Shown piece after piece: positions 6,826 through 33,175 of a stretch of 37,318 nt of DNA (positions are counted from its first letter, which is position 1; each line of letters starts with the position of its first letter). The translations under genes were made by a program, and so were the position numbers. Origin of the DNA: Patescibacteria group bacterium (GTDB lineage: Bacteria; Patescibacteriota; WWE3; UBA101185; UBA10185). The DNA lies in assembly GCA_016926555.1 (NCBI GenBank), contig JAFGOI010000007.1, positions 1 to 37,318 of the forward strand. Direction: 5' to 3'. The notes beneath the pieces are model-generated. The model saw nothing but the letters and a program-made list of their open reading frames with translations. It was not told where the DNA came from and made no database searches.

Positions 6826-8059
6826 GATTTTCCTCTATCATATTCTTCAATTTCTCAAACCGGCTTAAAAGCTCCTTCTTTTTCTCCTCATCACTAATTC
6901 TACTTATAACTTTACTAAAATATTCCAAACCCATTAACACAAAACCTGGTTCATATAAGTACTCACCGCAAGGCATGCTCTTCTTCGACATCCACCAATA
7001 CTTATCACTACATAACATCCTATGTATATTAATGTATAGCTGCGTGTTTCCATCCATATCCCAACTCATCCCCCCTCCCTGTACATTTATCTCGTTTTTG
7101 TATACAATACCGCCCTCGTTAATACATCCTAATATGTTACTCTCTATATCATACATTAGTGATTGTATGTTATTAGTGGTATTAAACCACAATGGGTACG
7201 AGTCGGTTACATTGTTAGAAATATCCATAGTATTCCATGTAGATTCGTTAATAATATCAACATCGCGTGTCGGGAGATTTGACACAAGCTTCGACATGAA
7301 ATTAGTGGAAATACCATCTGATCTAAATCTATCCATGATTATACTAAGAAGTGTCATGCCATCTTTGTAATGATGGCCGAAATACTCACCATCAAGTGCA
7401 ACTACAGTTGCATCTTTAACCTCCTTATATATATGATTAAATATGTCATCTGTATCTAGATCGCGCTTAAAAGAGATAATATTGCTGAGCTTCCTGTCGC
7501 GACAAACAAGATAACACGAGTTATCTTTATACTTATAAACAGACTCGAAAACATTTTCCTTATCAACTAACCCCTTTACTGCAACCTCGCTTACAAGCAT
7601 CCAATCGTAACCTAAGGAAGATACCACTTGAACAATATTCTCATTTATAGCAAGTTCCGGAGGAAAAAACCCTCTTACATCTTTAATCATTAGTGCAGGA
7701 AACCCTTCAAAGTCCTGTTTCGAGCCAAGATAATATCCCAGACCGTACTCATTTAGAAGAATCTCATCCTCAGCAATATTTTTGGGCAACATAGAAAGAA
7801 TTGGATGATATGCTGCGCTACCTATGATCTCAATTCTATCACTCTTATAGAGAGTCTTAATTTCTTCTATCCACTCTTTGTGCCCATACTTATCCATTAT
7901 CTCTAGTAAACTAAGGGGGATATTTAAAGTAAGGTTCACATCCTTACGATTATTAATAAATTTAAGCAAGGGATAGTAGCTCTCTTTCGCTATCTTATCA
8001 AGAACCTCCTTCTTTTGGAACGAGGGCTGATATAAATGAAGTATAAATGCAACGTTCAC
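6812..8059 (-). CDS. Glycoside hydrolase family 57 protein, shorter paralogue
   Basis: A second GH57 protein, 415 residues, distantly paralogous to the next gene. It shares LHLYQPSFQKKEVLDKI (8-24), FFPPELAIN (131-139), LDGEYFGHH (222-230) with Glu225 the expected nucleophile, and CSDKYWWMS towards the C-terminus. It lacks the long C-terminal helical region of its neighbour. The start is GTG at 8059; a TTGACA-17-GATAAT promoter ends 7 bases before it, so the mRNA probably begins at this codon. As first gene of the GH57-GH57-glgA-galT unit it sets expression of the whole glucan operon. Confidence 0.87.
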   Translation of the reverse strand: MNVAFILHLYQPSFQKKEVLDKIAKESYYPLLKFINNRKDVNLTLNIPLSLLEIMDKYGHKEWIEEIKTLYKSDRIEIIGSAAYHPILSMLPKNIAEDEILLNEYGLGYYLGSKQDFEGFPALMIKDVRGFFPPELAINENIVQVVSSLGYDWMLVSEVAVKGLVDKENVFESVYKYKDNSCYLVCRDRKLSNIISFKRDLDTDDIFNHIYKEVKDATVVALDGEYFGHHYKDGMTLLSIIMDRFRSDGISTNFMSKLVSNLPTRDVDIINESTWNTMDISNNVTDSYPLWFNTTNNIQSLMYDIESNILGCINEGGIVYKNEINVQGGGMSWDMDGNTQLYINIHRMLCSDKYWWMSKKSMPCGEYLYEPGFVLMGLEYFSKVISRISDEEKKKELLSRFEKLKNMIEENHANS

Positions 8060-8066
8060 ATAACTA

Positions 8067-8095
8067 ATTATCTAGCAAACTAAAATGTGTGTCAA
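8067..8095 (-). promoter_or_regulatory. Leaderless promoter of the GH57-glgA-galT operon
   Basis: Minus strand: TTGACA (8095-8090), 17-bp spacer, GATAAT (8072-8067), then 7 bases to the GTG at 8059. The predicted transcript starts at or within a base of the start codon. Confidence 0.72.
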
Positions 8096-8099
8096 AAAG

Positions 8100-8207
8100 T
8101 AGTAAGAAAAATTAGGGGGCTTACCCCAGGAAGGACGATTTCATATGCTCCTGCCCACAGCATAAGAAACTTTAGTGTCGTTCCTGGGATAAACCCCCCA
8201 ATTGAAT
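8100..8207 (-). ncRNA. Candidate small structured RNA or attenuator hairpin
   Basis: A consensus promoter (8242-8214) predicts a start near 8207. The transcript then folds into one long imperfect hairpin: outer arms 8203-8181 and 8133-8111 (GGGGGGTTTATCCCAGGAA against TTCCTGGGGTAAGCCCCC), an internal CGA/TCG pair, TTTC/GAAA, and an apical TATGCT/AGCATA stem with a nine-base loop. The 3' arm is followed by a TTTTTC tract like an intrinsic terminator. A short SD-like AGGAG and a seven-codon frame (MKSSFLG) lie in the apical and 3' part. It could be an independent RNA of about 100 nt, an attenuator, or simply the glgA2 terminator. Confidence 0.45.
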
Positions 8208-8213
8208 GCCTGA

Positions 8214-8242
8214 ATTGTATCAAATGTATATAGGTCTGTCAA
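8214..8242 (-). promoter_or_regulatory. Promoter in front of the structured RNA
   Basis: Minus strand: TTGACA (8242-8237), exactly 17 bp, TACAAT (8219-8214). It sits 39 bases after the glgA2 stop and reads straight into the hairpin element. Confidence 0.75.
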
Positions 8243-8280
8243 ATTAGTGTAATAGGCGAAAATTATAGCATGTTATTCTA

Positions 8281-9825
8281 TTATTTTTTCGTGGGGATTT
8301 CTTTTTTTCTGAAATGGGCAGCCCTTTCGTATAGTTTAACATATTCAGAGGCACTAAAATTCCAGCTGAAATCCTGCCTCATCGCATTTTCCTGAAGCTG
8401 TCTCCATAGAGACGTATTATTATAGACCTCCATTGCCCTTATCATCTGCCCAAATAGTGAAAATTCATTGAAGTACTTAAACACAAATCCAGTCCCTTTT
8501 CCTGTACTGGAATCAAAATTCTCAACTGTATCCGCAAGGCCACCTACATGTCTCACCACGGGTATTGCTCCATACCTCATAGCCTCTAATTGTACTACAC
8601 CACAAGGTTCAAATCTTGAGGGATAGACGAACAAATCACATCCAGAGAAAAGCATCCTTGGTAACGCAAAATTGGGATACGGATGAATACCTACTTTATC
8701 GGGAAAGTCATTTTTAAGATAATTCAACATCTCAGCAAGACCCCCATCACCTCCCCCAACTTGAACAAACTGAATATTATATTCAGCCAATACCTGCCTA
8801 AGTGTTCGTACAAGTAAGTCCACCCCCTTTTGTATATCCAAACGTCCTACAAAACCGAATAGAGGCACATTGGGCTTTATAGGTAAATCGTATTCTTTTT
8901 GAAGAGCGTTCTTGTTTTCATCTCGCAATTCTAGAGAGCCAATATCATAATTTTTTTCAACCAGTGTATCTGTTGCAGGATTTAACTCATCATAATCAAT
9001 ACCGTTTATAATTCCAAAAAGCCTGCCCTTCAATTCCATGAGTAATTTATCTAGTCCTTCTCCAAACTCCGGAGTAAGAATCTCTTTTGCGTATGTCTTC
9101 GAGACAGTGTTTAATGCATCCGAATAAAGAATTCCGCGCTTAAGAAAATTTAGTTTATTTAACCTGTCCGCAAAAAATGAAGGAATATGAGACCTGCCAT
9201 CGTCATAATCCAACTCCGACATGTGCCTGTGGTCAATCATTCCTTGGAACATCATATTGTGTATTGTGAACACCATAGGAATCTTTCCAAGTATAGGATC
9301 CTTTCTATACACAGTTTTCACATAATTTGGAAGAAGACCCGTATGCCAATCATTACAATGAATTACATCAGGAACAAATATCCCCGTCCTAATAAACTCC
9401 AGTGTACCGCGCGCTAATAAAGCCCATCTGGTAGGATCATCACTATAACCATAAACGTTTGCACGCTTTTCATAATATTCCTGGTTCTCAAGAAAATAAG
9501 TAGTAAAACCGTTTTCATTCGAAACCTTTTTTACATTACATATCAGCTTAGTTCCCATTTCATCTCCTGTAGGTACTTCCAGTCCCTCGTACTCCATAGA
9601 TATTTTATTTATGGTTTCATCGATAGAACCAAATTTGGGCATAAATACTCTCACATCATATCCTAAATCTGTTAGGGCCTTTGATAGATGTTTCATAACA
9701 AACGCAACTCCTCCAACAGATGCATACGGAGCAACCTCAGCCGCCACTATCAATACCTTTAACTTCCCTTCCTTTTTCTTAACCCTAGTCTTTTCGGATG
9801 TAGGAGATTTCTTCGTTCTTGCCAT
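8281..9825 (-). CDS. glgA: Glycogen synthase paralogue (GT5) with altered K-x-G-G motif
   Basis: A second GT5 protein, 514 residues. N-terminal KVLIVAAEVAPYASVGGVAF, HCNDWHTGLLPNYVK, NTVSKTYAKEILTPEFGEG, then GFVGRLDIQKGVDLLVRTL and YPSRFEPCGVVQLEAMRYG with the conserved catalytic Glu are all clear. In the usual K-x-G-G-L motif the Lys is Ser36 here (SVGGV), so nucleotide-sugar contacts probably differ. The first 22 residues are a Lys-rich extension. No Shine-Dalgarno is visible; a weak promoter sits 8 bases upstream of ATG. It is a separate unit from the downstream glucan operon. It may use another donor or make a different glucan; that is inference. Confidence 0.9.
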   Translation of the reverse strand: MARTKKSPTSEKTRVKKKEGKLKVLIVAAEVAPYASVGGVAFVMKHLSKALTDLGYDVRVFMPKFGSIDETINKISMEYEGLEVPTGDEMGTKLICNVKKVSNENGFTTYFLENQEYYEKRANVYGYSDDPTRWALLARGTLEFIRTGIFVPDVIHCNDWHTGLLPNYVKTVYRKDPILGKIPMVFTIHNMMFQGMIDHRHMSELDYDDGRSHIPSFFADRLNKLNFLKRGILYSDALNTVSKTYAKEILTPEFGEGLDKLLMELKGRLFGIINGIDYDELNPATDTLVEKNYDIGSLELRDENKNALQKEYDLPIKPNVPLFGFVGRLDIQKGVDLLVRTLRQVLAEYNIQFVQVGGGDGGLAEMLNYLKNDFPDKVGIHPYPNFALPRMLFSGCDLFVYPSRFEPCGVVQLEAMRYGAIPVVRHVGGLADTVENFDSSTGKGTGFVFKYFNEFSLFGQMIRAMEVYNNTSLWRQLQENAMRQDFSWNFSASEYVKLYERAAHFRKKEIPTKK

Positions 9826-9833
9826 GGGAGTTC

Positions 9834-9862
9834 ATTTTATCACAAAAAGCGCCGCATTTCTA
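9834..9862 (-). promoter_or_regulatory. Possible promoter of glgA2 overlapping the preceding terminator
   Basis: Minus strand: TAGAAA (9862-9857), 17 bp, TAAAAT (9839-9834), 8 bases before ATG. The -35-like element lies in the loop of the terminator hairpin at 9844-9871. Confidence 0.4.
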
Positions 9863-9871
9863 ATACGGCGC
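9844..9871 (-). terminator. Rho-independent terminator of the HTH gene
   Basis: GCGCCG (9871-9866 on the minus strand) pairs with CGGCGC (9854-9849) across an 11-base loop, followed by TTTTT. It lies 50 bases after the HTH gene and separates it from glgA2. Confidence 0.8.
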
Positions 9872-9921
9872 TTTATGAAAGCAAATAAATGCTTCATTAT
9901 TTAACATATTAAATTGTGTTC

Positions 9922-10797
9922 TTACTTTAACACACTATCCGCCTCATCTCTTAGAGACTGATCACCTAAAGAAGTTATATCCTCGTTAAGTCTGGCCTTT
10001 GTAACAACGAACAACCCGTGGAGCTCCTCACTGGATGCAAAGACAGAATCATCCTTTGTTAATAACAAACCAAGCTGCGCATCTGTTTCATCTGACACAG
10101 TCAATTTAAGACTCTTCTCGTAAAATTCCAGATCAGAGGGTCTAATATATACGTGTAAAACTGAAAACGGCTTTATAGGGCTATGGAGAGAAAGACCCGC
10201 GTTAAGTGTAAACGCATAGGGAAGTTGAGCATTTCTCGCGGTTTTATCAACACCTTGGGCTATATCTTTCAATCCACCCAAACCGCTCCTGTAAAATTTA
10301 CTAACCTCTTCTTGAATTTCTTCCTCAACAGGTTCCTCTTCTACCACCTCTTCTTCCCGTGCACCTAACCCTGTAATACCCTCTACCCTTTCTTCTGTTT
10401 CATCTTCCTGAAACTTCTTTGCTGCTTCTCTGAATTTTGAAAGCCAGTCAACTGATTCATCTTCCTTTGGTACCTCAGTTGTCTGTGCCGTGGTCTTCAC
10501 TCGTTCTGCTGATTCTACCGTTACCTTAACCCCTTGCGCCACTTTCTCCTCAGCAATGCCAGTACCCTCTATCACTTTCGCTACAGGCCTTACATCTCTA
10601 GATTCACCTTCGGGAACTCCCTCAGGATATAAAAAATCCATAATATCCTGTTTTGTGAACCTATGTCTGCCTGTAGCAGTTTTTACTTCCGCATGGAGTT
10701 TATTTTCTTCAATATACCTATAGACAGATCGCAGACTAACTCCGAGAATTTCCGCGACCTCAGTAGAGGTATACAGTTTGTCTTCAAGTTTTATCAT
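9922..10797 (-). CDS. HTH (MerR/excisionase-like) DNA-binding protein with unknown C-terminal domain
   Basis: Residues 8-58 form a winged helix-turn-helix of the MerR/HTH_17 kind: TSTEVAEILGVSLRSVYRYI, then GRHRFTKQDIMDFL. A middle region (about 60-165) is charged and low in complexity, with Glu-rich runs. The C-terminal part (about 170-291) looks folded and contains PYAFTLNAGLSLHSPIKPFS and LHVYIRPSDLEFYE; I do not recognise it. There is no membrane segment. The gene has a TTGACA-17-TTTCAT promoter ending 6 bases before ATG and a 16-bp perfect palindrome just upstream, suggesting autoregulation. Its position beside glgA2 makes control of carbohydrate genes possible but unproven. Confidence 0.7.
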   Translation of the reverse strand: MIKLEDKLYTSTEVAEILGVSLRSVYRYIEENKLHAEVKTATGRHRFTKQDIMDFLYPEGVPEGESRDVRPVAKVIEGTGIAEEKVAQGVKVTVESAERVKTTAQTTEVPKEDESVDWLSKFREAAKKFQEDETEERVEGITGLGAREEEVVEEEPVEEEIQEEVSKFYRSGLGGLKDIAQGVDKTARNAQLPYAFTLNAGLSLHSPIKPFSVLHVYIRPSDLEFYEKSLKLTVSDETDAQLGLLLTKDDSVFASSEELHGLFVVTKARLNEDITSLGDQSLRDEADSVLK

Positions 10798-10803
10798 ACT
10801 TAA

Positions 10804-10832
10804 ATGAAATCATGTTAGAAATACTATGTCAA
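10804..10832 (-). promoter_or_regulatory. Leaderless promoter of the HTH gene
   Basis: Minus strand: TTGACA (10832-10827), 17 bp, TTTCAT (10809-10804), 6 bases to ATG at 10797. Confidence 0.65.
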
Positions 10833-10837
10833 TATTT

Positions 10838-10853
10838 TATATATGCATATATA
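10838..10853. repeat. Perfect 16-bp palindrome, candidate operator
   Basis: TATATATGCATATATA, fully self-complementary, ends 5 bp upstream of the -35 box of the HTH gene and starts 6 bases from the wecG-type stop codon. Possible binding site for a dimeric regulator, most simply the HTH protein itself. AT-rich palindromes also arise by chance. Confidence 0.5.
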
Positions 10854-10858
10854 TGTAC

Positions 10859-11761
10859 TTAGTTGTTTTTCAAGGAATATCTATATACTTTTAGAGGCAA
10901 TCCCGGAAAAGCGTTCAAAACTCTTGCTAATCTCCATGGCTCGTTTAGTAAAGAATACAGCCAATCTAAGTGATACTTAGTAAAACACTTCGGGGGAACA
11001 TTTAGAGAGTTTGAATAGTAATTATACGACCTGCCCACCCCCACTGATACCCTGGCAGGTATCTTCTTCATATTACGTACTATCCAACTTTCTTGTTGAT
11101 ACTGATTAAAAGCGGCGAAGAGAAAATCAAGCTTTTCTAGTCTATGATCTGAAAGACATTTCTTAATATAGGATACAGCGGAAGTATCGTTACTAGACTT
11201 ATAACTGTACTGTGAGGAAGACCCGATAATATTGACATTGGGATACTCCTTTCTAAACATGTCTGCTGTCTCTGTAGCAATATCCCTATTAGTATTCAGA
11301 GACCTTCCCATCCAACTTTTAGGCCATCCGCCCATAAGAAAAATGGTATACCCTTTTTCATGCGACAGTTTACACACTTGCCTAACCAGTTCTACCCCCG
11401 TAATTCTATCTCCCAGATCAATCGAGTTAGTTAATATAGAACAACCTAGTTTTACCCCCTCAACTAACCCTTTAAAGCTACTATATTTCCCTTCCCTCTT
11501 TAGAAACTCAACCCTCTTTAGAAACTCATTTGTCGCGAGAACACCTGTGCTATCTGGAACTGATAAAGCTGCCCCGTTTATGATCTCTTTAAATGCATCA
11601 TTTTCCGATGCTTCCATTAGAAACTCAGAATTCGTCGTGCATATATAGTGGCTTTTGTCATCAGTAAGTAAATTATTCTCAATGTATGCCAATACATCCT
11701 GCATACTGAACCCAAAGTCTATCCGTATTCCGAAAATTTCCCTAGATTTAGGAGTCAACAT
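10859..11761 (-). CDS. WecG/TagA/CpsF family glycosyltransferase (GT26)
   Basis: GT26 enzymes add N-acetylmannosamine-type sugars to lipid-linked intermediates for teichoic acids or surface polysaccharides. Visible family marks are ICTTNSEFLMEA (residues 40-51), ALSVPDSTG with the likely catalytic Asp70, YTIFLMGGWP, LFAAFNQYQQESWI, and the C-terminal HLDWLYSLLNEPWRLARV. An insertion of about 40 residues after residue 80 makes it 300 residues, longer than the usual 240-250. I chose ATG 11761 over the longer GTG start at 11776, because TATAAT occupies codons 2-3 of the longer frame and lies 6 bases before 11761. Divergent from the PEGA gene. Confidence 0.85.
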   Translation of the reverse strand: MLTPKSREIFGIRIDFGFSMQDVLAYIENNLLTDDKSHYICTTNSEFLMEASENDAFKEIINGAALSVPDSTGVLATNEFLKRVEFLKREGKYSSFKGLVEGVKLGCSILTNSIDLGDRITGVELVRQVCKLSHEKGYTIFLMGGWPKSWMGRSLNTNRDIATETADMFRKEYPNVNIIGSSSQYSYKSSNDTSAVSYIKKCLSDHRLEKLDFLFAAFNQYQQESWIVRNMKKIPARVSVGVGRSYNYYSNSLNVPPKCFTKYHLDWLYSLLNEPWRLARVLNAFPGLPLKVYRYSLKNN

Positions 11762-11767
11762 ACTTGA

Positions 11768-11773
11768 ATTATA
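11768..11773 (-). promoter_or_regulatory. -10 box of the glycosyltransferase gene
   Basis: Consensus TATAAT on the minus strand, 6 bases before ATG 11761; no convincing -35. Predicts a leaderless mRNA. Confidence 0.65.
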
Positions 11774-11775
11774 CA

Positions 11776-11804
11776 CTGAATCTAAAGCGAAAATCTGGTA
11801 AAAT
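11776..11804 (+). promoter_or_regulatory. Leaderless promoter of the PEGA gene
   Basis: CTGAAT (11776-11781), 17 bp, TAAAAT (11799-11804), 6 bases to GTG 11811. It lies back to back with the divergent -10 box at 11768-11773. Confidence 0.6.
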
Positions 11805-11810
11805 CAGTAT

Positions 11811-12965
11811 GTGCATAAAATTGGCCTAATACAAAAAGTGATAACCGTTACCCTCCTCTTAGGAATTACAACTGTACTCTATTTATATACATCCGGGTAC
11901 AGGCTTGAAAGAGAAAAGGATAACACTATAGATATTGAAAAAACCGGGATGGTAAGTGCGAAATCACTTCCTGAAGGGGCAAGCGTGTACATTGATGGGA
12001 AACTCATTACAGCTACTAACGATACCATTCCAGGTGTGAAGCAAGGTCTCCACCAGCTAAAGATAGTTAAGAAAGGCTTTGTTGAGTGGAATAAGGACAT
12101 TGAAGTATATGAAGCTCTTGTTACAGACGTTACAGCTATCTTGATTGCTCAGAGTCCAAAACTTGAACCATTAACTACAACCGGAGCCAGAAACCCAATT
12201 ATTTCACCTTCCTTAAAATATATTGCATACTTTTCTAACGATAACGAAACACCGGGCATATGGGTAATTCCACTAAATAACGGCCTCACCTTTTTCAGAT
12301 CGAACCCCACCGTAGTCATGCAAGATACTAAATTCACAAAATACTCACAGGGAAATTCCATCACCTGTTCACCCGATGAAAAGAAACTTCTGATTGAGGG
12401 GGCGGAAAAAACATACTACCTTGTTGATCTGGCAACCAATACAGCAGAGACAATTTTAGATCCCGAAGAAATAAACCTGGATTGGGAAACAAAGCTCAAG
12501 AAAAAAAGAGAATTATTCCTGGAAAAAATAATAGTAGAAGACGACTATATCAAAGAGACTGCTAAATCTGATGATGTACTGTGGTCACCAGATGAAAAAA
12601 AGTTCCTTTACAAGACAGAAGAAGGCACTAAAGTGCAATATAAAGTTTACAATATGGAAGACCCGTTACCTATAGGTGAAAAAAAGGATAACTTTCTTTT
12701 TGAGATAGAAAAAACAGAAATCCCCCCTATTATCAGCTGGTACTCTGATAGTTTCCATCTTCTACTAGTAAGAGGGGATATTGAAAACAGCAAATCCGGA
12801 AACATCAGCATTATCAGAATCGACGGAACAAACGAGACAGAAATATACAATAACACGTTACATTCAAACTACGTATATAACGCCCCAAGTGGAGATAAAG
12901 TAATAATACTTACAACATTTAAATCTGGGGATCAAACCGATTTATACACTATCAGTATAAGATAA
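11811..12965 (+). CDS. Membrane-anchored PEGA-domain protein with beta-propeller-like region
   Basis: Residues 5-27 form one hydrophobic segment (signal anchor), followed by a PEGA domain at about 45-115 (LPEGASVYIDGKLI, GLHQLKIVKKGFVEW). PEGA domains are extracytoplasmic beta modules common in surface proteins. The rest (120-384) has spaced repeats such as SPSLKYIAYFSNDN, SPDEKKLLIEG and SPDEKKFLYKTEEG, the pattern of TolB/WD40-like propeller blades. The start is GTG at 11811; the ATG two bases earlier is out of frame. Probably exported and anchored with the domains outside. Function unknown; it may sense or organise the cell wall alongside the nearby sortase. Confidence 0.75.
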   Translation: MHKIGLIQKVITVTLLLGITTVLYLYTSGYRLEREKDNTIDIEKTGMVSAKSLPEGASVYIDGKLITATNDTIPGVKQGLHQLKIVKKGFVEWNKDIEVYEALVTDVTAILIAQSPKLEPLTTTGARNPIISPSLKYIAYFSNDNETPGIWVIPLNNGLTFFRSNPTVVMQDTKFTKYSQGNSITCSPDEKKLLIEGAEKTYYLVDLATNTAETILDPEEINLDWETKLKKKRELFLEKIIVEDDYIKETAKSDDVLWSPDEKKFLYKTEEGTKVQYKVYNMEDPLPIGEKKDNFLFEIEKTEIPPIISWYSDSFHLLLVRGDIENSKSGNISIIRIDGTNETEIYNNTLHSNYVYNAPSGDKVIILTTFKSGDQTDLYTISIR

Positions 12966-12987
12966 AGGTAATATACTCACTCCAATA

Positions 12988-13701
12988 TTATTCATCGTCA
13001 GGGTTTCCTGCTATAAAGTCAGCTAATTTTGCCGTTACTACTAACCTGTTCAATGTAGTTCCCGGAGGATCACAAGTTTGGAGAGTTAACAGAGGTTCAA
13101 TAACGGGCCGAGTTAACGGATATGTATCCCACCCTTTAACCTTCTCTATATTTATTACTGAATATACATAGGCATCCCCTTCATAAAAAACATGGACTTT
13201 ATCCCCCGGGTCGAGTTTACGTAACAGATTGAACACAGTAGCATATTCGCCAAGTTTCCAGAAATTTAAAGAGGCATGCGCAAAAATATAAACATTACCG
13301 GGTTTTCTTGAAGGATACCCCGAAGTTAATGAATGCGCCACTCCATATTTTAATGCCTCAGAATATGCTACTTCGTCAGTCACTGACACATCTTTCACCA
13401 CAGGCACGTTTACACCAATTCTTTCGATAACTAAACCAAAGTCTTTACTTACCGGTTCTATTCTTATTGGTTTTGAAGATAGGTATCTCGCAAATATACT
13501 ATCCCTTACAGTGTCACCTTTATTTGCCAGATCTTCATTTGCAACTAATACGAATTCTTGCTCTTTCATCTCCTTAAAATAAAACCAAACTTCATCTCTG
13601 ATTAAAGGACCAAAAGAAATCATTAGAAGGAAAATGCCCAACAGTATCAAAGACATCGGAAGCCATGTAAAAAACCTCTTTTTGACCACTCTTAATTTCA
13701 C
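12988..13701 (-). CDS. Sortase (transpeptidase)
   Basis: Sortases cut sorting-signal proteins and join them to the cell wall or to each other. Catalytic residues are visible: His142 in IFAHASLNFW, Cys210 in TLQTC and Arg219 in LNRLVVTAKL. An N-terminal membrane anchor spans about residues 12-34. The 237-residue length is normal. The start is GTG 13701, which lies exactly 6 bases after TATAAT. The convergent PEGA gene ends 22 bases away. It is a different subtype from the sortase at 34638, so the organism has at least two; the substrate of this one is not obvious in the window. Confidence 0.9.
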   Translation of the reverse strand: MKLRVVKKRFFTWLPMSLILLGIFLLMISFGPLIRDEVWFYFKEMKEQEFVLVANEDLANKGDTVRDSIFARYLSSKPIRIEPVSKDFGLVIERIGVNVPVVKDVSVTDEVAYSEALKYGVAHSLTSGYPSRKPGNVYIFAHASLNFWKLGEYATVFNLLRKLDPGDKVHVFYEGDAYVYSVINIEKVKGWDTYPLTRPVIEPLLTLQTCDPPGTTLNRLVVTAKLADFIAGNPDDE

Positions 13702-13707
13702 ATATTT

Positions 13708-13716
13708 ATTATAACA
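13708..13716 (-). promoter_or_regulatory. Extended -10 promoter of the sortase gene
   Basis: TGTTATAAT on the minus strand (TG-n-TATAAT), 6 bases before GTG 13701. The extended -10 can compensate for the lack of a good -35. Confidence 0.65.
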
Positions 13717-13737
13717 GTATCTTCAAAAGAGATTATT

Positions 13738-13765
13738 TTGACTATCATATTTATAAATGTAAAAT
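13738..13765 (+). promoter_or_regulatory. Leaderless promoter of the thioredoxin gene
   Basis: TTGACT (13738-13743), 16 bp, TAAAAT (13760-13765), 6 bases to ATG 13772. Confidence 0.75.
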
Positions 13766-13771
13766 GTACAC

Positions 13772-14044
13772 ATGAAAGTACTAAAAATAGGAGCTCTATG
13801 GTGTTCTGGATGTTTAGTTATGGTCCCCCGATGGAAAGAGATAGAAAAGGAAAATCCATGGCTGGAAACTACATATTACGATTATGACTCTAGCCCTCAA
13901 GTAGTTTCTGAGTACGGATTAGAAGAAGGTCTGCTACCAACTTTTATATTTCTAGACAAAGATGGGGTCGAAGTTCATAGATTGTCTGGTGAAGTTGATA
14001 AAAATACTCTACTCGAACTAGTTAACAAATATAGAGAATCTTAA
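13772..14044 (+). CDS. Small thioredoxin-family protein
   Basis: A 90-residue thioredoxin fold with active-site WCSGC at residues 10-14 and the cis-proline segment LLPTFIFLDKDG near residue 65. There is no signal peptide, so it probably works in the cytoplasm as a dithiol reductant. It is followed 31 bases later by a fused glutaredoxin-CcdA membrane protein, which would carry electrons outward. The two make a plausible relay: cytoplasmic thioredoxin to membrane CcdA to an external thiol domain. The WCSGC dipeptide differs from thioredoxin's WCGPC, so redox potential probably differs. Confidence 0.82.
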   Translation: MKVLKIGALWCSGCLVMVPRWKEIEKENPWLETTYYDYDSSPQVVSEYGLEEGLLPTFIFLDKDGVEVHRLSGEVDKNTLLELVNKYRES

Positions 14045-14070
14045 CATCCCTCATAGCAAGGGTGTAAAAT
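14041..14070 (+). promoter_or_regulatory. Leaderless promoter of the glutaredoxin-CcdA gene
   Basis: TTAACA (14041-14046, containing the stop codon of the preceding gene), 18 bp, TAAAAT (14065-14070), 5 bases to ATG 14076. Confidence 0.6.
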
Positions 14071-14075
14071 ACTTG

Positions 14076-15606: not shown

Positions 15607-15635
15607 TTGATTTTAACACAAAATAAAAGGATAAT
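15607..15635 (+). promoter_or_regulatory. Leaderless promoter of the HD-domain gene
   Basis: TTGATT (15607-15612), 17 bp, GATAAT (15630-15635), 6 bases to ATG 15642. Confidence 0.75.
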
Positions 15636-15641
15636 TAGCAT

Positions 15642-18718: not shown

Positions 18719-18727
18719 ATGATACCA
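18719..18727 (-). promoter_or_regulatory. Extended -10 promoter of ndk
   Basis: TGGTATCAT on the minus strand, 7 bases before ATG 18711; predicts a leaderless or nearly leaderless mRNA. Confidence 0.5.
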
Positions 18728-19862: not shown

Positions 19863-19892
19863 ATTATACAATAATAGTTTACATTCTTTCAG
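19863..19892 (-). promoter_or_regulatory. Leaderless promoter of the phosphoesterase gene
   Basis: Minus strand: CTGAAA (19892-19887, inside the argS 3' end), 18 bp, TATAAT (19868-19863), 7 bases to ATG 19855. Confidence 0.62.
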
Positions 19893-24803: not shown

Positions 24804-24809
24804 TGCCTA

Positions 24810-24838
24810 ACTTTACAACATTTGTTGGAATATTTCAA
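24810..24838 (-). promoter_or_regulatory. Leaderless promoter and operator of the ArsR gene
   Basis: Minus strand: TTGAAA (24838-24833), 17 bp, TAAAGT (24815-24810), 6 bases to ATG 24803. The inverted repeat CAACATTTGTTG (24816-24827) fills part of the spacer; an imperfect palindrome (24825-24838) overlaps the -35. Confidence 0.7.
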
Positions 24839-27280: not shown

Positions 27281-27285
27281 GACAA

Positions 27286-27291
27286 ATTTTA
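27286..27291 (-). promoter_or_regulatory. -10 box of dprA
   Basis: TAAAAT on the minus strand, 5 bases before ATG 27280; no good -35. Predicts a leaderless start. Confidence 0.5.
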
Positions 27292-27323
27292 CAAGAGAGT
27301 GTATTCTATTTTTCACAGAAGTC

Positions 27324-27332
27324 TGGTATACT
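27324..27332 (+). promoter_or_regulatory. Extended -10 promoter of the MerR-like gene
   Basis: TGGTATACT (TG-n-TATACT). Predicted start near 27339, about 30 bases before ATG 27369; no clear Shine-Dalgarno in that short leader. Confidence 0.5.
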
Positions 27333-27368
27333 TATTTCGGTTTTACGACTGCCCACATTAGGATTTTG

Positions 27369-28031
27369 ATGAATAATCTAATTAGCATAGAAAGATTAAT
27401 AAAAAACGCCAAGAAAAAAGGTATAGATTTTGGAAAAGGTGATCCCTATAACCGTCTCAGATACTACACAAAAATGGGATGGCTACCCCACACTGTAAGA
27501 AAAAAAGATAAAAAAGGCGACGTGAAGGGACATTATCCAGCTTGGGCACTTGATCATTTAATACTAATAGAGGAGCTGAAAGAAAAAGGCTTATCTAACG
27601 AGGAAATCGCAAAAAGATTAAGCGCTAAAAACAAACTCGTAAATTTCTTTGATTTACTCAAGGACACAAACACAAGAAACCTCGTACTCAGTTATATAGC
27701 TTTCGGAATGATAGTCATCATATTCCTTACTGAAATGGGATTATTAAAAATTGGTAAAACGAAAGATATACTGTTCAATCCCTCAATTACTAGCGTCACA
27801 GCCCAAATACTAGATAGTGGAAATGCCTTTATTCCTACGAACACAGACTCTGTATTTATAAAGACCTCATTTATCAATAGAAATATGAAAGTGAATGTCA
27901 CATTTAACCAAGATTACTATCCAGCTACAAGATATTGGATAGAAGAAATCAAAGATTACGAAGGCTTTATAATCAAACTGGATTCACCAGTAGAGAACAA
28001 TCCAGATTTCAACTGGTGGGTGACTAATTAA
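27369..28031 (+). CDS. Membrane-anchored MerR-like HTH protein
   Basis: The N-terminal 85 residues resemble a MerR-type winged helix: DPYNRLRYYTKMGWLPHTVRK, a basic wing, HYPAWALDHLILIEELKEKG and LSNEEIAKRLS. A single hydrophobic helix follows (about 105-126), then about 90 residues predicted outside the membrane, with several Asn/Asp/Tyr and a final NPDFNWWVTN. A DNA-binding head with an external domain suggests a one-component sensor, or a protein tethering DNA to the membrane. The external domain is not one I recognise. I used ATG 27369; the longer frame from 27279 runs through the promoter and dprA's 5' end. Confidence 0.7.
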   Translation: MNNLISIERLIKNAKKKGIDFGKGDPYNRLRYYTKMGWLPHTVRKKDKKGDVKGHYPAWALDHLILIEELKEKGLSNEEIAKRLSAKNKLVNFFDLLKDTNTRNLVLSYIAFGMIVIIFLTEMGLLKIGKTKDILFNPSITSVTAQILDSGNAFIPTNTDSVFIKTSFINRNMKVNVTFNQDYYPATRYWIEEIKDYEGFIIKLDSPVENNPDFNWWVTN

Positions 28032-28057
28032 GCACCGTTACGCCAAATAATATATCC

Positions 28058-28074
28058 ATTCCCGTCACGGGAAT
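28058..28074. repeat. Perfect inverted repeat upstream of the O-antigen ligase promoter
   Basis: ATTCCCG-TCA-CGGGAAT, 6 bp before the TTGACA at 28081 and 27 bases after the MerR-like gene. No T-run follows, so it looks more like an operator than a terminator. Confidence 0.5.
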
Positions 28075-28080
28075 TGCCTC

Positions 28081-28109
28081 TTGACAGACATCTCTTTTTA
28101 TCCCACACT
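28081..28109 (+). promoter_or_regulatory. Promoter of the O-antigen ligase/TPR gene
   Basis: TTGACA (28081-28086), 17 bp, CACACT (28104-28109), 7 bases to ATG 28117. The -10 is weak but resembles the rplJ TACACT. This rules against the TTG at 28081 being the start codon. Confidence 0.55.
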
Positions 28110-28116
28110 TAATATT

Positions 28117-30417
28117 ATGGAACAAATTAGTAATCAAAGGTTTATAATCAATAAAATTTTAAAGATACTACCTTTGGTAATTACAGCTTTGATGCCAGTG
28201 TTTTTCTTACCAACCACCACAGAGTTCTTCGAGATGAACAAATTAGCTCTGTTAATAGTAGGGACTATACTGATGTCAGTTTTGCTTACACTTAAGATAG
28301 TATCTGGGGATAAGATAAGATTTGTAAAATCTATAATCGACCTCCCTCTGTGGGCATATGGTTTAGTCCTAATACTGGCCACAGTGTTTTCCATCAACAA
28401 AACTCAGAGTATATATGGTGGATATGGAAGATGGTTTCCAAGCTTGCTAGCCTTCCTTGGTCTACTTGCCTACTTCTACCTTTCTACATACATGTTTGAC
28501 ACCAAGAAAGACGTCAAAAATGCCCTTTATGTACTTCTCGGCGGCGTAAGCATATCCGTATTGGTAGCCCTACTTGCGTACTTCAAAATCTATATGGGAA
28601 CAGCAGCCTACATGAAAGTGCCGGGATTTACTTTAGCAGGATCAACCACTACTACTGCTGTATTGGCAGGCATAGGTGTTGGTCTATCCATAGCTTTATT
28701 AGCCTATGAAAATAAGAAGTCCAGAAGTTACTTACTAATAGGCGCTACTACAGTCAACTTGCTATATGTCGTATTAGTGAGTATTACCCCCGGATGGGTA
28801 GCTCTAGTCACAAGTCTTCTGGGTGTGGCAACATATGTCAACCTTCAAAAATTTGCGGAGAAAAGGTCGGAAATGATAGCTCTTGCGGGAACATTACTAG
28901 CTGTAGTATTTACGCTTGTTCTTCCTACTACAAGAGACTTAATAAAAAATAAACAGTACCCTAAAGAACTTGTACTCCCTCTTAGAGAAAGTTGGATGAT
29001 CACTTCCTCCATAACAAGAGATTTCCCACTCCTAGGTACTGGCCCATCAACATTTAATTTAAACTTTCCAAGATACAGACCGGCAGGATTGAATCAGGGA
29101 GATCTATGGAATACGAGATTCGATAAAGCGCATAACGAAATTCTAAATATGATTGGTGGCCTTGGCTTATTAGGACTACTATCTCTAATATTTATGGGTT
29201 CCAGAGTACTTAAACTGGTCAACGGAGCAAAAAGTATTCCAGACGATTCTGGAATAAACGCAGCAGCAAGTGTGATAATACTGTCAATCGGTGCATCGTT
29301 CTTCGTTACATATGCAACTGTGCTGACGGCCTTTATCATCTTCTCCGCATTTAGCTATATAGTAGCGGCAAACGCGATTGGTAAAGATAAACTGGAACTA
29401 TCCGATGTTGTGGTAGTCAATTTCGCACAAGTCTCCGCAGTCTCAAGCCTGGGTGAGCTAAAAGTCGCACAGGAAAGCTATACAAAATACATAGTTGCAG
29501 TGCCTTTACTTCTAGTTACTGGCTACTTCGGATACCTAAACTACAGAAATTATATGGCTGAGGTATACATGAGAAGTGCTATGATGGCCACTGCCACTGA
29601 TGCCGCAAAGTCATATGAACTTCAAGGAAAAGCGATAAACATGAACCCCCAGAGAGACATTTATCACACAACATACGCTCAAACTAATCTTGCACTAGCG
29701 AATGTACTAGCCGCAAAAGGCGCAGACTTGACAGATGCTGACAGAAAAACAATACAGACATTAATATCTCAATCTATCCGAAGCGCTAGAATAGCAACAG
29801 AGATAATCAACCCGCTTAATGTCAGCAACTGGGAAACTAGAGCCGTAATATACAGAAGCCTAGTAAACGTAGCAAATAACGCGGCTGATTGGGCTGTAAG
29901 ATCATACAACAATGCTATACAGCTAGATCCAACAAATGCGAGACTAAGACTTAATCTCGGAGGCATCTACTACGCTGCCGGAGATTATTTATCCGCCGCT
30001 AACCAATTCAGACAAGCAACTGCACTAAAGAACAACTATGCAAATGCTTACTACAATTTCGCACAGGCACTAAAACAGCTGAAAAACTACCCTAATGCTA
30101 TAGCGGCTCTTGAGATAACAAAAAATCTCGTTGGGAAAAATTCGTCCGACTTCCAAAAGGTCGAAAACGAATTAGCACAACTTAGATCCCAGCCTCAGGT
30201 TGCAGGAGCGCAGGCAACCAAACCCAGCGTTGAGGAGATTGCAGGTACATCAGTTGAAGAAACAGCCCCAGCAAACCAACCTCCTCTGACCAACACAGGA
30301 GAACAAGTAACAAAAGAGGGGGAACTAAACCTTGAACAACTCCCTCCTAGAGAACAGCCAATAGTTGAGGGGCAACCGCAACCTACTGTGACACCAACAC
30401 CTACACCCGCTGAATAA
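28117..30417 (+). CDS. O-antigen ligase/polymerase-like membrane protein with TPR and Pro/Thr-rich tail
   Basis: A 766-residue protein. Residues about 1-460 hold a dozen hydrophobic helices and a Wzy_C/WaaL-type loop (GTGPSTFNLNFPRYRP, then NEILNMIGGLGLLGLLSLI), as in enzymes that polymerise or ligate lipid-linked glycans at the outer face of the membrane. After a membrane segment near 480 (YIVAVPLLLVTGYFGYL) comes an external region with tetratricopeptide repeats (NNAIQLDPTNARLRLNLG, NNYANAYYNFAQALKQLKNY), then a tail rich in Pro, Thr, Gln and Glu. A strong terminator follows. Probably attaches a glycan to surface protein or polysaccharide; polymerase and ligase roles cannot be separated by sequence. 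Confidence 0.83.
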   Translation: MEQISNQRFIINKILKILPLVITALMPVFFLPTTTEFFEMNKLALLIVGTILMSVLLTLKIVSGDKIRFVKSIIDLPLWAYGLVLILATVFSINKTQSIYGGYGRWFPSLLAFLGLLAYFYLSTYMFDTKKDVKNALYVLLGGVSISVLVALLAYFKIYMGTAAYMKVPGFTLAGSTTTTAVLAGIGVGLSIALLAYENKKSRSYLLIGATTVNLLYVVLVSITPGWVALVTSLLGVATYVNLQKFAEKRSEMIALAGTLLAVVFTLVLPTTRDLIKNKQYPKELVLPLRESWMITSSITRDFPLLGTGPSTFNLNFPRYRPAGLNQGDLWNTRFDKAHNEILNMIGGLGLLGLLSLIFMGSRVLKLVNGAKSIPDDSGINAAASVIILSIGASFFVTYATVLTAFIIFSAFSYIVAANAIGKDKLELSDVVVVNFAQVSAVSSLGELKVAQESYTKYIVAVPLLLVTGYFGYLNYRNYMAEVYMRSAMMATATDAAKSYELQGKAINMNPQRDIYHTTYAQTNLALANVLAAKGADLTDADRKTIQTLISQSIRSARIATEIINPLNVSNWETRAVIYRSLVNVANNAADWAVRSYNNAIQLDPTNARLRLNLGGIYYAAGDYLSAANQFRQATALKNNYANAYYNFAQALKQLKNYPNAIAALEITKNLVGKNSSDFQKVENELAQLRSQPQVAGAQATKPSVEEIAGTSVEETAPANQPPLTNTGEQVTKEGELNLEQLPPREQPIVEGQPQPTVTPTPTPAE

Positions 30418-30455
30418 TGTAGCGGTTCTTTACTTAAGACAGATCTAACTTAAGA

Positions 30456-30488
30456 GGGCCCGGGTTTTACCCGGGCCCCTTCTATTTT
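30456..30488 (+). terminator. Rho-independent terminator after the O-antigen ligase gene
   Basis: GGGCCCGGGT, a TTT loop, ACCCGGGCCC, then CTTCTATTTT: a perfect 10-bp GC-rich stem and a broken T-run 40 bases past the stop. Confidence 0.88.
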
Positions 30489-30607
30489 CTACGAAAATAA
30501 CAAAATCCACACAGGACACATGCACCAAATTCTTGGTAATGGTTATTGGCCGAAATAACGACTAATTCAGTCCGAATTATTCGCGCCCCACAATTTATAC
30601 AGAAACA

Positions 30608-30632
30608 AAAAAACACCCAATGGGTGTTTTTT
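30608..30632. terminator. Bidirectional terminator, mainly for tRNA-Ala/obg transcripts
   Basis: AAAAACACCC-AAT-GGGTGTTTTTT, symmetric with A and T runs on both sides. On the minus strand it lies 7 bases past the tRNA-Ala 3' end. Confidence 0.88.
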
Positions 30633-30638
30633 CATTTC

Positions 30639-30715
30639 TGGTGGACCGTAGGGGACTCGAACCCCTGGCCTCTACCATGCCATAGTAGCGCTCTAGCCAT
30701 CTGAGCTAACGGCCC
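30639..30715 (-). tRNA. tRNA-Ala (GGC)
   Basis: Acceptor GGGCCGT/ACGGTCC with the G3-U70 pair that identifies alanine tRNAs, anticodon loop ATGGCAT (anticodon GGC), T-loop TTCGAGT and encoded ACCA end. Confidence 0.95.
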
Positions 30716-30756
30716 GTAAAATGAATTATATCAAAGTTTCAAACCTACAACTCCTC

Positions 30757-31929
30757 TTAATATCTTTTGATATCTTTTTCCAAAACAGCATTATCGTCAA
30801 AAACCATCCGCTTATTCGGTAAGTTATCTATTGTATAAACCTTTACAGGCTTCTCCACCGTGAATAAAGGCTTTTTAGGAACCTTAGATAATTCAGACAA
30901 TATTCTTTTAGACAACTCATCCAATCCCTCGCCGGTAAAAGCTGATACGCCTAATATATTTAAATCACGTTTTTTAAAAGCTTTTTTTATATCAACCATC
31001 CTATCTCGTACCTCAGTTATATCAATTTTATTAACTACGGAAATCACTGGTTTTTTATCTAAATTGCGTCCGTGCTCTTTTAGCTCATTAGTAATTGTTT
31101 CGAAATTTTCAAGCGAGTTATTAACCACATCATAAATATCTTTACCTTGCAACGGGTCTACAACATGTACTAAAATCCTAGTCCGCTCAATGTGGCGCAA
31201 GAACTGGTCACCCAAACCTTTGCCTTGATATGCTCCCTCAATTAAACCGGGAATATCGGCAAGAATAATTTTACTCTTGTCGTTTAATGTCATAACTCCC
31301 AAATTTGGCGACAACGTCGTAAAGGGAAACTCTCCTACTTTAGCATTTGCATTAGTTAAAAAATTTAATAGAGTACTTTTCCCGGCATTTGGTAAACCCA
31401 CTAGCCCCACATCAGCAACTAATTTAATCTCAAGTTTTAACTCTATCTCTCGCGTAGTTTTACCTTTCGTGTACTGCCGGGGAGTTCTATTTGTGGAACT
31501 TCTAAACCTCCAATTTCCAACTCCACCTTCTCCCCCTTTCGCAACTAATAATACCTGCCCAGGATCCAGCATATCACCTAGTAACACTTCCTTCTCCTTA
31601 TTATCCTTATCCTCCTTATTCCTACGAATCTCGTAAATCAACGTGCCAACAGGGACATTAATATACAAATCTTCTCCGGAGGCACCCTTCATCTTTTTCA
31701 CCTTGCCCGCCTGGCCCTTTCCAGCTTTAAACACAGGGTGAGATCGGAAATCGGCTAGGGTAGCCATATTTGAATTTACTCTAAAATAGACACTGCCCCC
31801 GTCTCCGCCATCTCCACCTGAAGGCCCGCCCTTAGCAATCCCTTTCTCTCTCCTAAATGCAACTAAACCATCCCCGCCATCACCAGCTTTTATTTTTATT
31901 TGCGCTATATCAATCAGTTGTTTTGACAT
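30757..31929 (-). CDS. obg: Obg GTPase
   Basis: Essential GTPase linked to 50S subunit assembly and stress control. The N-terminal Obg fold (1-165) is Gly-rich (AGDGGDGLVAFRREKG, GGPSGGDGGDGGSV); the G domain has GLPNAGKST (178-186), FTTLSPNLGV, DIPGLIEGA, NKID and a final SAFTGEG. The C-terminus is only about 45 residues beyond the G domain, a short or degenerate OCT region, for a total of 390. It follows the M23 gene by 5 bases; an AGGGA lies 3 bases before ATG. Downstream is tRNA-Ala, probably in the same transcript. Confidence 0.95.
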   Translation of the reverse strand: MSKQLIDIAQIKIKAGDGGDGLVAFRREKGIAKGGPSGGDGGDGGSVYFRVNSNMATLADFRSHPVFKAGKGQAGKVKKMKGASGEDLYINVPVGTLIYEIRRNKEDKDNKEKEVLLGDMLDPGQVLLVAKGGEGGVGNWRFRSSTNRTPRQYTKGKTTREIELKLEIKLVADVGLVGLPNAGKSTLLNFLTNANAKVGEFPFTTLSPNLGVMTLNDKSKIILADIPGLIEGAYQGKGLGDQFLRHIERTRILVHVVDPLQGKDIYDVVNNSLENFETITNELKEHGRNLDKKPVISVVNKIDITEVRDRMVDIKKAFKKRDLNILGVSAFTGEGLDELSKRILSELSKVPKKPLFTVEKPVKVYTIDNLPNKRMVFDDNAVLEKDIKRY

Positions 31930-31934
31930 ATTCC

Positions 31935-33140
31935 CTAATTAGTATAATTTTGCGGGTTCTGCGGAACACCGTTATACTTGACCATAAAATGAACATGAGG
32001 TCCAGTTGAGTTACCCGTATTTCCCATCCAACCTATAATCTGTCCTCTTGACACCTTCTCACCATACTTTACATTAAGGCTACTCATATGACCATACACA
32101 GTTTCGTATCCATCCCCGTGGTCTATACGCACGTGAAGACCCAACCCAAACGGATCCCATCCCGCCCTTACTATCACACCATCTCTGCATGAAAAAAGAG
32201 GGGGCATTGGAGAACCACTTGGAGTGGTTATATCTACACCATTATGATACCAAGTGAAATATTGCGAAATTAAACGAACAGTAGTCGGCCACACACAGAA
32301 ATTCCTGCTGGGGATAGCTTCCCCAGACCCAAATGTCGGTGCAACTGCAACTGTTGGAGGAATGTACGGTTTAACCGGTTCGGGAACTTTAGCCCCCGGA
32401 ATAACTAGTTCGGTTCCCAAAGCTAACTTTGACGTGTCAAGAATATAGTTAAAATCGGCTACCGCCTGAACCGGAACATCATATTTTTCCGCAATTGAAG
32501 TCAGTGTGTCTCCTTTTTCAACTTTGTGCACCAACCCGGAAACAGGGGGTATACTTATTGCCGAGCCCACTTGCAGGATGGAATTATCCGTAAGGCTATT
32601 TACGTATTTCAAAGCATCCACGGAAATCTTAAACTTGGAACCGATCCCAAATAACGTATCCCCGGGTTGAATAGTGTACGAAAACGATTCCGTACTTTTC
32701 CTGATTGCCGGTACTTCGGTTAGAGCGGTTTCTCTTCGTGGAATAATATCATTAGCGATTTTTATGTAATCCTCGCTTTCCGTCTGTGCCATTACTAGAG
32801 GAGAACTGTTGAACGTTTCACCGAAAATAAAAACGAATAAAGCTGACAACATTACAGTTGCAAGAGCAACTGACCTTCCTAATTTACCGCGTGACCAGAT
32901 AAGTTTTTTAACAACAAAGGATTTAACTCTTCGGGGAACGTTACGAAAATACTTAAACGTCCATGAAAAAAACATACCAAGTAACTTAAACTTCAATAAA
33001 AGGTATTTAAAGAAGGAAAAGCCAAAGTCCTTCAATAAATTAATTCCCTGTTCAATTTTGTTTTTACCCTTTGGTCGGAAGGCGTCAAAACTTAGTTGAA
33101 AAAACCGCCTAGACCTTGGAAACTTGTAGGTTGGGGTCAT
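31935..33140 (-). CDS. M23 peptidase with two LysM domains
   Basis: A cell-wall hydrolase or its regulator. A long basic N-terminus (1-88) precedes one membrane segment (about 90-107, SVALATVMLSALFVFIFG). Two LysM peptidoglycan-binding domains follow (153-198, 203-248), then an M23 domain with HNGVD (His299, Asp303), YGHMS (His351) and GPHVHF (His382, His384), so the zinc site is complete. It probably cleaves peptide cross-links. TTGTTA-17-TAAAAT ends 6 bases before ATG. The 80-residue basic cytoplasmic tail is unusual for this family. Confidence 0.9.
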   Translation of the reverse strand: MTPTYKFPRSRRFFQLSFDAFRPKGKNKIEQGINLLKDFGFSFFKYLLLKFKLLGMFFSWTFKYFRNVPRRVKSFVVKKLIWSRGKLGRSVALATVMLSALFVFIFGETFNSSPLVMAQTESEDYIKIANDIIPRRETALTEVPAIRKSTESFSYTIQPGDTLFGIGSKFKISVDALKYVNSLTDNSILQVGSAISIPPVSGLVHKVEKGDTLTSIAEKYDVPVQAVADFNYILDTSKLALGTELVIPGAKVPEPVKPYIPPTVAVAPTFGSGEAIPSRNFCVWPTTVRLISQYFTWYHNGVDITTPSGSPMPPLFSCRDGVIVRAGWDPFGLGLHVRIDHGDGYETVYGHMSSLNVKYGEKVSRGQIIGWMGNTGNSTGPHVHFMVKYNGVPQNPQNYTN

Positions 33141-33146
33141 AGATAT

Positions 33147-33175
33147 ATTTTATCAATTGGAATTTGTACTAACAA
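33147..33175 (-). promoter_or_regulatory. Leaderless promoter of the M23 peptidase gene
   Basis: Minus strand: TTGTTA (33175-33170), 17 bp, TAAAAT (33152-33147), 6 bases to ATG 33140. Confidence 0.72.

Follow-up and report, generated by a model that had tools for sequence, protein, structure and literature searches.

Extended -10 boxes at start codons suggest leaderless transcription of many leading genes in a Patescibacteria genome

Results

Promoter-like boxes before start codons in the window

The window analysed here is the whole stretch of 37,318 nucleotides (37 kb) that makes up contig C11 (JAFGOI010000007.1) of a Patescibacteria genome, termed here G000 (872,428 bases on 13 contigs, 38.4% G+C), and our subject is a -10-like promoter hexamer that stands so close to the start codons of genes leading transcription units that their mRNAs would lack a 5' leader. 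A sequence-only reading of the window had placed such a hexamer 5-7 bases before 14 start codons. Scored with a model of the genome's own sites, which was trained on all leading-like genes including those of the window and is thus slightly favourable to window scores, seven of the 14 are strong (score of at least 6: 11761, 11811, 13701, 13772, 18711, 19855 and 33140), three are moderate (3.9-5.7: 10797, 24803 and 27280) and four are weak (2.0 or less: 8059, 14076, 15642 and 28117); overall, 10 of 32 window genes score at least 6. The listed sites, two further ones outside that list and an operon-internal contrast case preceded by a Shine-Dalgarno (SD) word are as follows.

8067-8072, minus strand: -10-like GATAAT, 7 bases before GTG 8059; exact TTGACA 17 bp upstream; score 0.7.
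10804-10809, minus strand: weak -10-like TTTCAT (two mismatches), 6 bases before ATG 10797; exact TTGACA 17 bp upstream; score 4.8.
11768-11773, minus strand: TATAAT, 6 bases before ATG 11761 (the longest frame starts at GTG 11776); score 9.0.
11799-11804, plus strand: extended -10 TGGTAAAAT, hexamer TAAAAT preceded by TGG, 6 bases before GTG 11811; score 11.7.
13708-13713, minus strand: extended -10 TGTTATAAT, hexamer TATAAT, 6 bases before GTG 13701; score 11.1.
13760-13765, plus strand: TAAAAT, 6 bases before ATG 13772; TTGACT 16 bp upstream; score 7.8.
14065-14070, plus strand: TAAAAT, 5 bases before ATG 14076, a spacer that is rare genome-wide; score 2.0.
15630-15635, plus strand: GATAAT, 6 bases before ATG 15642; score 0.9.
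18719-18724, minus strand: extended -10 TGGTATCAT, hexamer TATCAT, 7 bases before ATG 18711; score 9.4.
19863-19868, minus strand: TATAAT, 7 bases before ATG 19855; score 9.7.
24810-24815, minus strand: TAAAGT (two mismatches), 6 bases before ATG 24803; TTGAAA 17 bp upstream; score 5.7.
27286-27291, minus strand: TAAAAT, 5 bases before ATG 27280; score 3.9.
28081-28086 and 28104-28109, plus strand: exact TTGACA, then 17 bp, then CACACT, 7 bases before ATG 28117; score -1.1, the weakest listed.
33147-33152, minus strand: extended -10 TGATAAAAT, hexamer TAAAAT, 6 bases before ATG 33140; score 11.1.
9834-9839, minus strand: extended -10 TGATAAAAT, hexamer TAAAAT, 8 bases before ATG 9825; score 8.7; outside the original list.
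5230-5235, minus strand: extended -10 TGCTACCAT, hexamer TACCAT, 6 bases before ATG 5223; score 8.6; outside the original list.
2340-2346, plus strand: SD-like AAGGAGG before rplL (ATG 2357), operon-internal; contrast case.

The hexamer claimed at 28117 did not hold up, since only CACACT is found there, with a spacer of 7 and three mismatches to TATAAT. Many of the sites had also been credited with a TTGACA-like -35 element: within the window, six of the 13 sites checked on the correct strand have one, with a hexamer within one mismatch of TTGACA at a gap of 15-19 bp (8059, 10797, 13772, 14076, 24803 and 28117), but it does not generalise, as only 11 of 200 high-scoring genes genome-wide carry a TTGACA-like word at 16-18 bp (other gaps, 0-4 each). 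The exact TTGACA words are those of 8059, 10797 and 28117, three sites with a poor -10; this is what one would expect if one element compensates for the other. The commoner partner of the box is a TG at -15/-14, which is visible already in the unselected logo. At 11811 and 13701, the choice of GTG as start codon was correct and follows from frame alone, because the out-of-frame ATG opens only six codons at 11811 and meets TGA at once at 13701. Among the operon-internal genes said to have SD sequences, rplL (AAGGAGG), galT (AAGGA) and the second GH57 gene (GAGGA) have them, and obg has only a weak AGGG (these gene names, and rplJ below, are those of the sequence-only reading).

A box at fixed spacing before leading genes, genome-wide

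Genes were called with a frame-specific Markov model, which yielded 717 genes (85% coding) and set starts by coding potential alone, such that upstream signals were unable to steer the choice of start. We divided the genes into 186 divergent genes, which are certain leaders of transcription units; 266 same-strand genes at a gap of at least 25 bases (187 with gaps above 60 and 79 with gaps of 25-60); 216 same-strand genes with a smaller gap or an overlap (tight genes), which are mostly operon-internal; and 49 at stretch edges, which were left unclassed. Genes spanning the cuts between 20-kb stretches are not included in the counts.

The check proposed with the sequence-only reading, a genome-wide count of TATAAT-like hexamers compared with operon-internal genes, came out in its favour. 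With a box defined as TA...T within one mismatch of TATAAT and the background as the mean over spacers 15-69, boxes at a spacer of 6 precede 37 of the 186 divergent genes (background mean 2.51; Poisson 4e-30), 23 of 187 same-strand genes with gaps above 60 (1.84), 12 of 79 with gaps of 25-60 (0.82) and 11 of 216 tight genes (1.36). A TANNNT-type -10 about 10 bp before the start, the mark of TA-led leaderless genes, is thus present above chance. The logo of 157 divergent genes starting with ATG or GTG shows T-12, A-11, A-9, A-8 and T-7, along with G at -14 and T at -1, and a random-start motif search on divergent genes returned TGATATAAT at spacer 6, a motif of TGnTATAAT type, from six of six seeds up to register (share 0.62-0.66, information 4.5-6.2 bits). 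The same search on upstream regions shifted by 20, 30 or 45 bases yielded other, weaker motifs of 1.3-3.7 bits.

To obtain null-corrected shares, the model was trained on one half of the genes and tested on the other, with chance removed by shifting. The corrected share of divergent genes with a box was 0.41-0.48 at thresholds of 3-5 bits and 0.23-0.34 at 6-8 bits, stricter thresholds giving lower floors (0.23 at 8 bits). In the same-strand classes, for which two models were pooled, the share at 3-5 bits was 0.42-0.48 at gaps of 25-60, 0.24-0.27 at gaps above 60 and 0.10-0.12 in tight pairs. Genes with a single plausible start gave shares of 0.46-0.58 (24 divergent genes) and 0.37-0.47 (36 same-strand genes) at 3-6 bits. 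If starts are set by the box, 44 of 171 high-scoring leading genes begin at another codon than under coding potential alone, and 33 at another than in the longest frame.

An initial pattern, plain TATAATNNNNNATG with a spacer of 5, gave no excess (19 matches versus 21 for its reverse); its spacing was wrong, and the result is no refutation. When the same pattern was moved, spacer 6 gave 36 matches and spacer 7 gave 32, with 11-27 at the other spacers from 0 to 15.

Another reading is that an A/T-rich genome offers boxes by chance and that start codons were picked to match them: G+C is 38%, the starts in the sequence-only reading were picked by eye, and 4 of its 14 sites score 2.0 or less. However, the starts used here were called without upstream signal, and the resulting peak (37 against 2.5) was accompanied by cross-validation and shifted controls and has no counterpart in the outgroup genome G172 (see below). 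For the genome as a whole, chance is already refuted, and as an explanation it is exceedingly improbable; the individual weak sites at 28117, 15642 and 14076 could be chance.

Position of the presumed transcription start

The usual context of bacterial transcription initiation is a pyrimidine at -1 and a purine at +1. A pyrimidine occupies -1 in 92 of 103 genes with a spacer of 6, versus 104 of 207 other candidate starts of the same genes (p=2e-12). The 171 box genes start with ATG (135), GTG (33) or TTG (3), in keeping with the mycobacterial RTG rule, and the three TTG starts compare with 40 of 118 beside shifted false boxes (p=1e-14); a TTG start would place a pyrimidine at +1. The score by which starts were chosen ignores both the -1 base and the codon, although the box model itself was trained with a codon prior. 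Both the pyrimidine at -1 and the avoidance of TTG say that the RNA would start on the start codon itself.

The spacers fitted to the 452 leading-like genes were 6 (0.53), 7 (0.23), 8 (0.10) and 9 (0.12), and those beyond 6 lend some weight to a reading in which the promoters are real but give short leaders of one to several bases, that is, near-leaderless initiation. This we consider unlikely: the mode lies at 6, the pairing of pyrimidine at -1 with purine at +1 coincides with the codon, and the proposal, which bears on the smaller part of the genes, shades into fully leaderless transcription.

Shine-Dalgarno words and initiation machinery

SD words precede 10 of the 186 divergent genes, compared to 9 of 186 in a control stretch, and 84 of the 216 tight genes, compared to 33 of 216, such that there is a clear excess among tight genes and none upstream of divergent genes. 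SD-led initiation accordingly does not look like the general mode in this genome; the division is the one looked for in leaderless genomes, with leading genes leaderless and operon-internal genes SD-led. The 3' end of the 16S rRNA carries GGATCACCTCCTTT, so the anti-SD is intact, and an S1-like match, IF3 and TIGR00092 (which we take to be YchF) are all present. Because the anti-SD end and these factors are retained, both initiation routes, leaderless and SD, look open in G000.

The box might instead be an A/T-rich ribosome-binding region of non-SD type, or a low-structure region, such as has been discussed for Bacteroidetes and for S1 binding, upstream of start codons on mRNAs with ordinary leaders. 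In its favour, Nakagawa 2017 (PMC5397173) cautions that S1 sites may underlie an A/T bias located around -20 to -10, and G000 has the S1-like match. But exact spacing (6, then 7), the TG of an extended -10, the pyrimidine at -1 and the bar on TTG are features of transcription initiation, and were the box a ribosome site, operon-internal genes should have it too, yet few of them do (11 of 216). This explanation is improbable, more so than short leaders.

The S1 match in G000 (C3:1260-2315) covers only positions 10-351 of the 516 of the model and has two TAA codons inside, and most of the S1-model matches listed across the phylum also stop near position 350. S1 was considered as a switch between modes: matches at E 0.001 occur in all 145 phylum genomes, other S1-domain proteins matching as well, and the curated cut-off of the model was passed by 0 of 145. 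The 16S gene of G000 (contig C6) is itself interrupted close to the 3' end: some 817 bases are inserted (L006:574-1390) between GATGAAGTCGTA and GAACAAGGTAGCCGTAG, with an open frame that by eye resembles a homing endonuclease; the anti-SD end is intact after the insertion.

Relatives and the phylum

The loss of uL30 is a signature of Patescibacteria, also known as CPR. We did not find uL30 in 57 of 59 phylum genomes, including G000 (92.3% complete), compared to matches in 10 of 14 control genomes; G000 thus combines a small genome (872 kb) with the lack of uL30. Genomes sampled from the phylum range from 0.4 to 2 Mb. Among named genomes, relatives of the Obg-like protein of the window turned up at two loci only, both in metagenome bins with possibly unreliable labels. 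The two with uL30, G019 and G039, belong to family f23, which has genomes of 1.4-2 Mb and of which the third member (G057, 68% complete) has none; the leaderless pattern described below is without excess in this family (21 versus 28 reversed, three genomes).

The same pipeline was run on stretches of seven other genomes (G128, with a single 20-kb stretch, was left out). Spacer-6 boxes precede 10 of 72 divergent genes in G134, of the same family (background 0.87), 2 of 20 in G120, of the same class (0.18), and 11 of 50 in G109 (0.55). In G113 (family f22) they precede 5 of 64 (1.58), with 10 more at spacer 7, and in G033 they precede 0 of 26 divergent genes (0.38) and 6 of 90 same-strand gapped genes (1.09). 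G048 (family f12) has no box peak (1 of 42 divergent genes versus 0.84), and SD words precede 2 of these 42 (control 0). The outgroup G172 has spacer-6 boxes at none of its 26 divergent (background 0.38), 70 gapped and 71 tight genes, and SD words at 18 of its 26 divergent genes versus 6 in the control.

Motif searches on G120 (64 genes), G033 (116) and G048 (79) returned no clear -10, and the search on G109 returned a TATAA-like motif at mixed spacers. Unlike in G000, SD words in G109 extend to leading genes (divergent 13 of 50, control 6; gapped 41 of 107, control 10). In tight genes they number 11 of 41 in G134 (control 7), 7 of 32 in G120 (control 5) and 3 of 53 in G113 (control 4). In the G113 stretches (L065-L074), we observed boxes before leading genes, and tight genes that have no SD excess but are A-rich at positions -4 to -2.

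Presence of the box tends to be shared between orthologs. Of 62 ortholog pairs from G000 and G134 in which both genes are leading, 16 have a box in both, 8 and 10 in one only and 28 in neither (p=0.003); 59 further pairs were not both-leading.

Across 145 phylum genomes including G000, the pattern TAWAATNNNNNTRTG has 3553 matches versus 1935 for its reverse; without G000 the counts are 3490 versus 1911, and G000 itself, favoured because the pattern was picked after trying variants on it, has 63 versus 24. With the codon moved to spacer 9, the counts are 2217 versus 1793. In the per-genome test, the pattern exceeds the control in 109 of 132 genomes and reaches 0.05 (one-sided) in 68 of 132, the 13 genomes with fewer than 10 matches to pattern and control together having been kept in the sums only. 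In 31 genomes of another phylum (that of a Clostridiales bin), the one other phylum compared, there is no enrichment (912 versus 865); among the 28 of these with at least 10 matches, the pattern exceeds the control in 16 and reaches 0.05 in 2. The reversed pattern is a crude control and says nothing of single genes.

The ratio of pattern to control is 4.7-5.0 in families f46, f67 and f13 and 0.76-0.92 in f12, f22 and f23, although f22 is no true negative, because its member G113 has boxes at spacers 5-8. Loss of the anti-SD is a possible cause in the exceptional families: among f22 genomes 2 of 7 carry the anti-SD sequence GGNTCACCTCC, and among f12 genomes 4 of 6. It is, however, missing too in the box-rich G109 and in G033, and the gaps may reflect missing rRNA genes in the bins. 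Overall, the trait seems widespread but uneven across the phylum.

Commonest arrangement or default?

The sequence-only reading had taken leaderless transcription to be the default for leading genes. The sharp enrichment at spacer 6 supports it, but with a corrected share of 0.41-0.48 among divergent genes, leaderless transcription appears to be the commonest arrangement detected for these genes, not the rule. Among the 186 divergent genes, we counted 31 strong boxes at spacers 4-9; spacers 10-109 hold 24, where 12.2 +/- 2.7 are expected. These counts would correspond to roughly 30 leaderless to 12 leadered genes.

Several observations weigh against a strict default. After correction, such a box is lacking in about half of the divergent genes and in some three quarters of the same-strand genes with gaps above 60, for reasons (a wrong start call, a weak box or a real leader) that our data do not tell apart; the lower share in the long-gap genes speaks the same way, although some of these may be operon-internal. 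Where divergent genes lack a leaderless box (100 genes), 15 boxes stand further upstream (6.8 +/- 2.5 expected), and this excess suggests that some genes are leadered. Spacers of 8-9 would amount to leaders of 1-3 bases. In the window, the starts at 34409 and 35423 have no scoring box, and rplJ (1827) has a leader with a GGAG word. Among relatives, the starts marked in the 16 doubly scored pairs with G134 agree exactly in 8 and within 3 residues in 13 (coding-only starts in the same pairs: 5 and 10), and only 1 of 24 both-leading pairs with G120 is doubly positive, its starts disagreeing. Even the family of G000 is uneven, with counts for the 145-genome pattern of 50 versus 15 in G134, 27 versus 18 in G091 and 26 versus 27 in G045.

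Other features of the window

A plus-strand gene near 27369 (window 27330-27369) has TGGTATACT about 30 bases upstream and AGGA before its ATG, and looks leadered by eye. G+C rises to 46% in window 36001-37000. In window 36938-37318, the segment 36938-36991 recurs at 98% identity as the final 54 bases of the contig, and the contig may end in a repeat-protein gene cut by repeat-limited assembly.

Discussion

Among the divergent genes of G000 with a recognisable promoter, most are very probably transcribed leaderless from an extended -10 set on an RTG codon. The box, its spacing, the pyrimidine at -1, the RTG restriction and the split between leading and internal genes are borne out by sequence statistics, and from these we infer where the RNAs begin, which polymerase acts and by which pathway initiation proceeds. 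The housekeeping RNA polymerase would bind the extended -10 (TGnTATAAT), usually without a recognisable -35, and begin transcription at the seventh base after the hexamer. This base would be the first of the start codon (A in ATG, G in GTG) and would follow a pyrimidine. The resulting mRNA would lack a 5' leader, and the ribosome would initiate on its 5'-terminal AUG or GUG. Operon-internal genes would mostly do without such a promoter and would often use an SD site.

Gene callers tuned to SD sites may misplace starts that are marked by a -10 box instead of a ribosome site. With the rule "extended -10, six bases, RTG", promoters, 5' ends and protein N-termini would become predictable from sequence in organisms that can hardly be cultured, and the same rule could guide the design of expression cassettes for those few members that are tractable. 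The interest lies chiefly in its breadth across the phylum. Because families with a strong box and families without one occur within one phylum, the evolution of initiation becomes testable. We hold a broader proposal tentatively, at a little short of an even chance: in most Patescibacteria, a group among the largest bacterial divisions, leading genes would have leaderless transcription as their old default, with SD sites kept mainly inside operons and certain families having moved to another mode. If it is true, starts and promoters in very many genome annotations need revision.

The leaderless transcriptome of Deinococcus deserti has reportedly been mapped experimentally. According to passages of a review (PMC9031893), around 60% of genes in D. 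deserti are leaderless, which makes this the majority mode there, as it may be for promoter-bearing divergent genes here, in an unrelated lineage. In a survey of 953 bacterial genomes (RefSeq 2010), Zheng et al. (2011; PMC3160421, in the passages available) classed genes with TANNNT about 10 bp upstream as leaderless and found more than 20% of genes to be so in Actinobacteria and Deinococcus-Thermus; the terms TM7, OP11 and candidate division are absent from its text. As in G000, only operon-proximal genes could be leaderless in that account, distal ones usually needing SD sites. The leaderless category of GeneMarkS-2 comprises 21.6% of bacterial species according to passages of the StartLink paper (PMC9581028), which do not state whether Patescibacteria are counted.

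In the CPR/Patescibacteria literature, the available parts of PMC6851277 and PMC10434106 have "leaderless" in a reference title only, a Saccharibacteria genetics paper (PMC10633639) leaves start sites aside in its promoter passages, and the sole remark in the passages of PMC12641178 concerns YchF, a retained protein with a known role in promoting leaderless translation. As far as our searches show, the trait is unreported for Patescibacteria in the open literature searched; most subscription journals lie outside it, and this is no proof of novelty.

The closest parallel is Mycobacterium, where, in the passages available of Shell et al. (2015; PMC4633059), RNA data, ribosome profiling and reporters identified nearly a quarter of transcripts as leaderless. 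As in G000, the -10 there stands right before the codon, the start point falls on the codon, and SD sites occur on leadered rather than leaderless genes; the same ATG/GTG rule applies, such a codon at the 5' end being both necessary and sufficient in Mycobacterium. Unlike Mycobacterium, G000 is a small, A/T-rich genome with an extended -10, in which up to about half of divergent genes would be leaderless, as judged by sequence only. It is nonetheless well supported that the feature works like, and by these tests belongs with, the leaderless genes of other bacteria.

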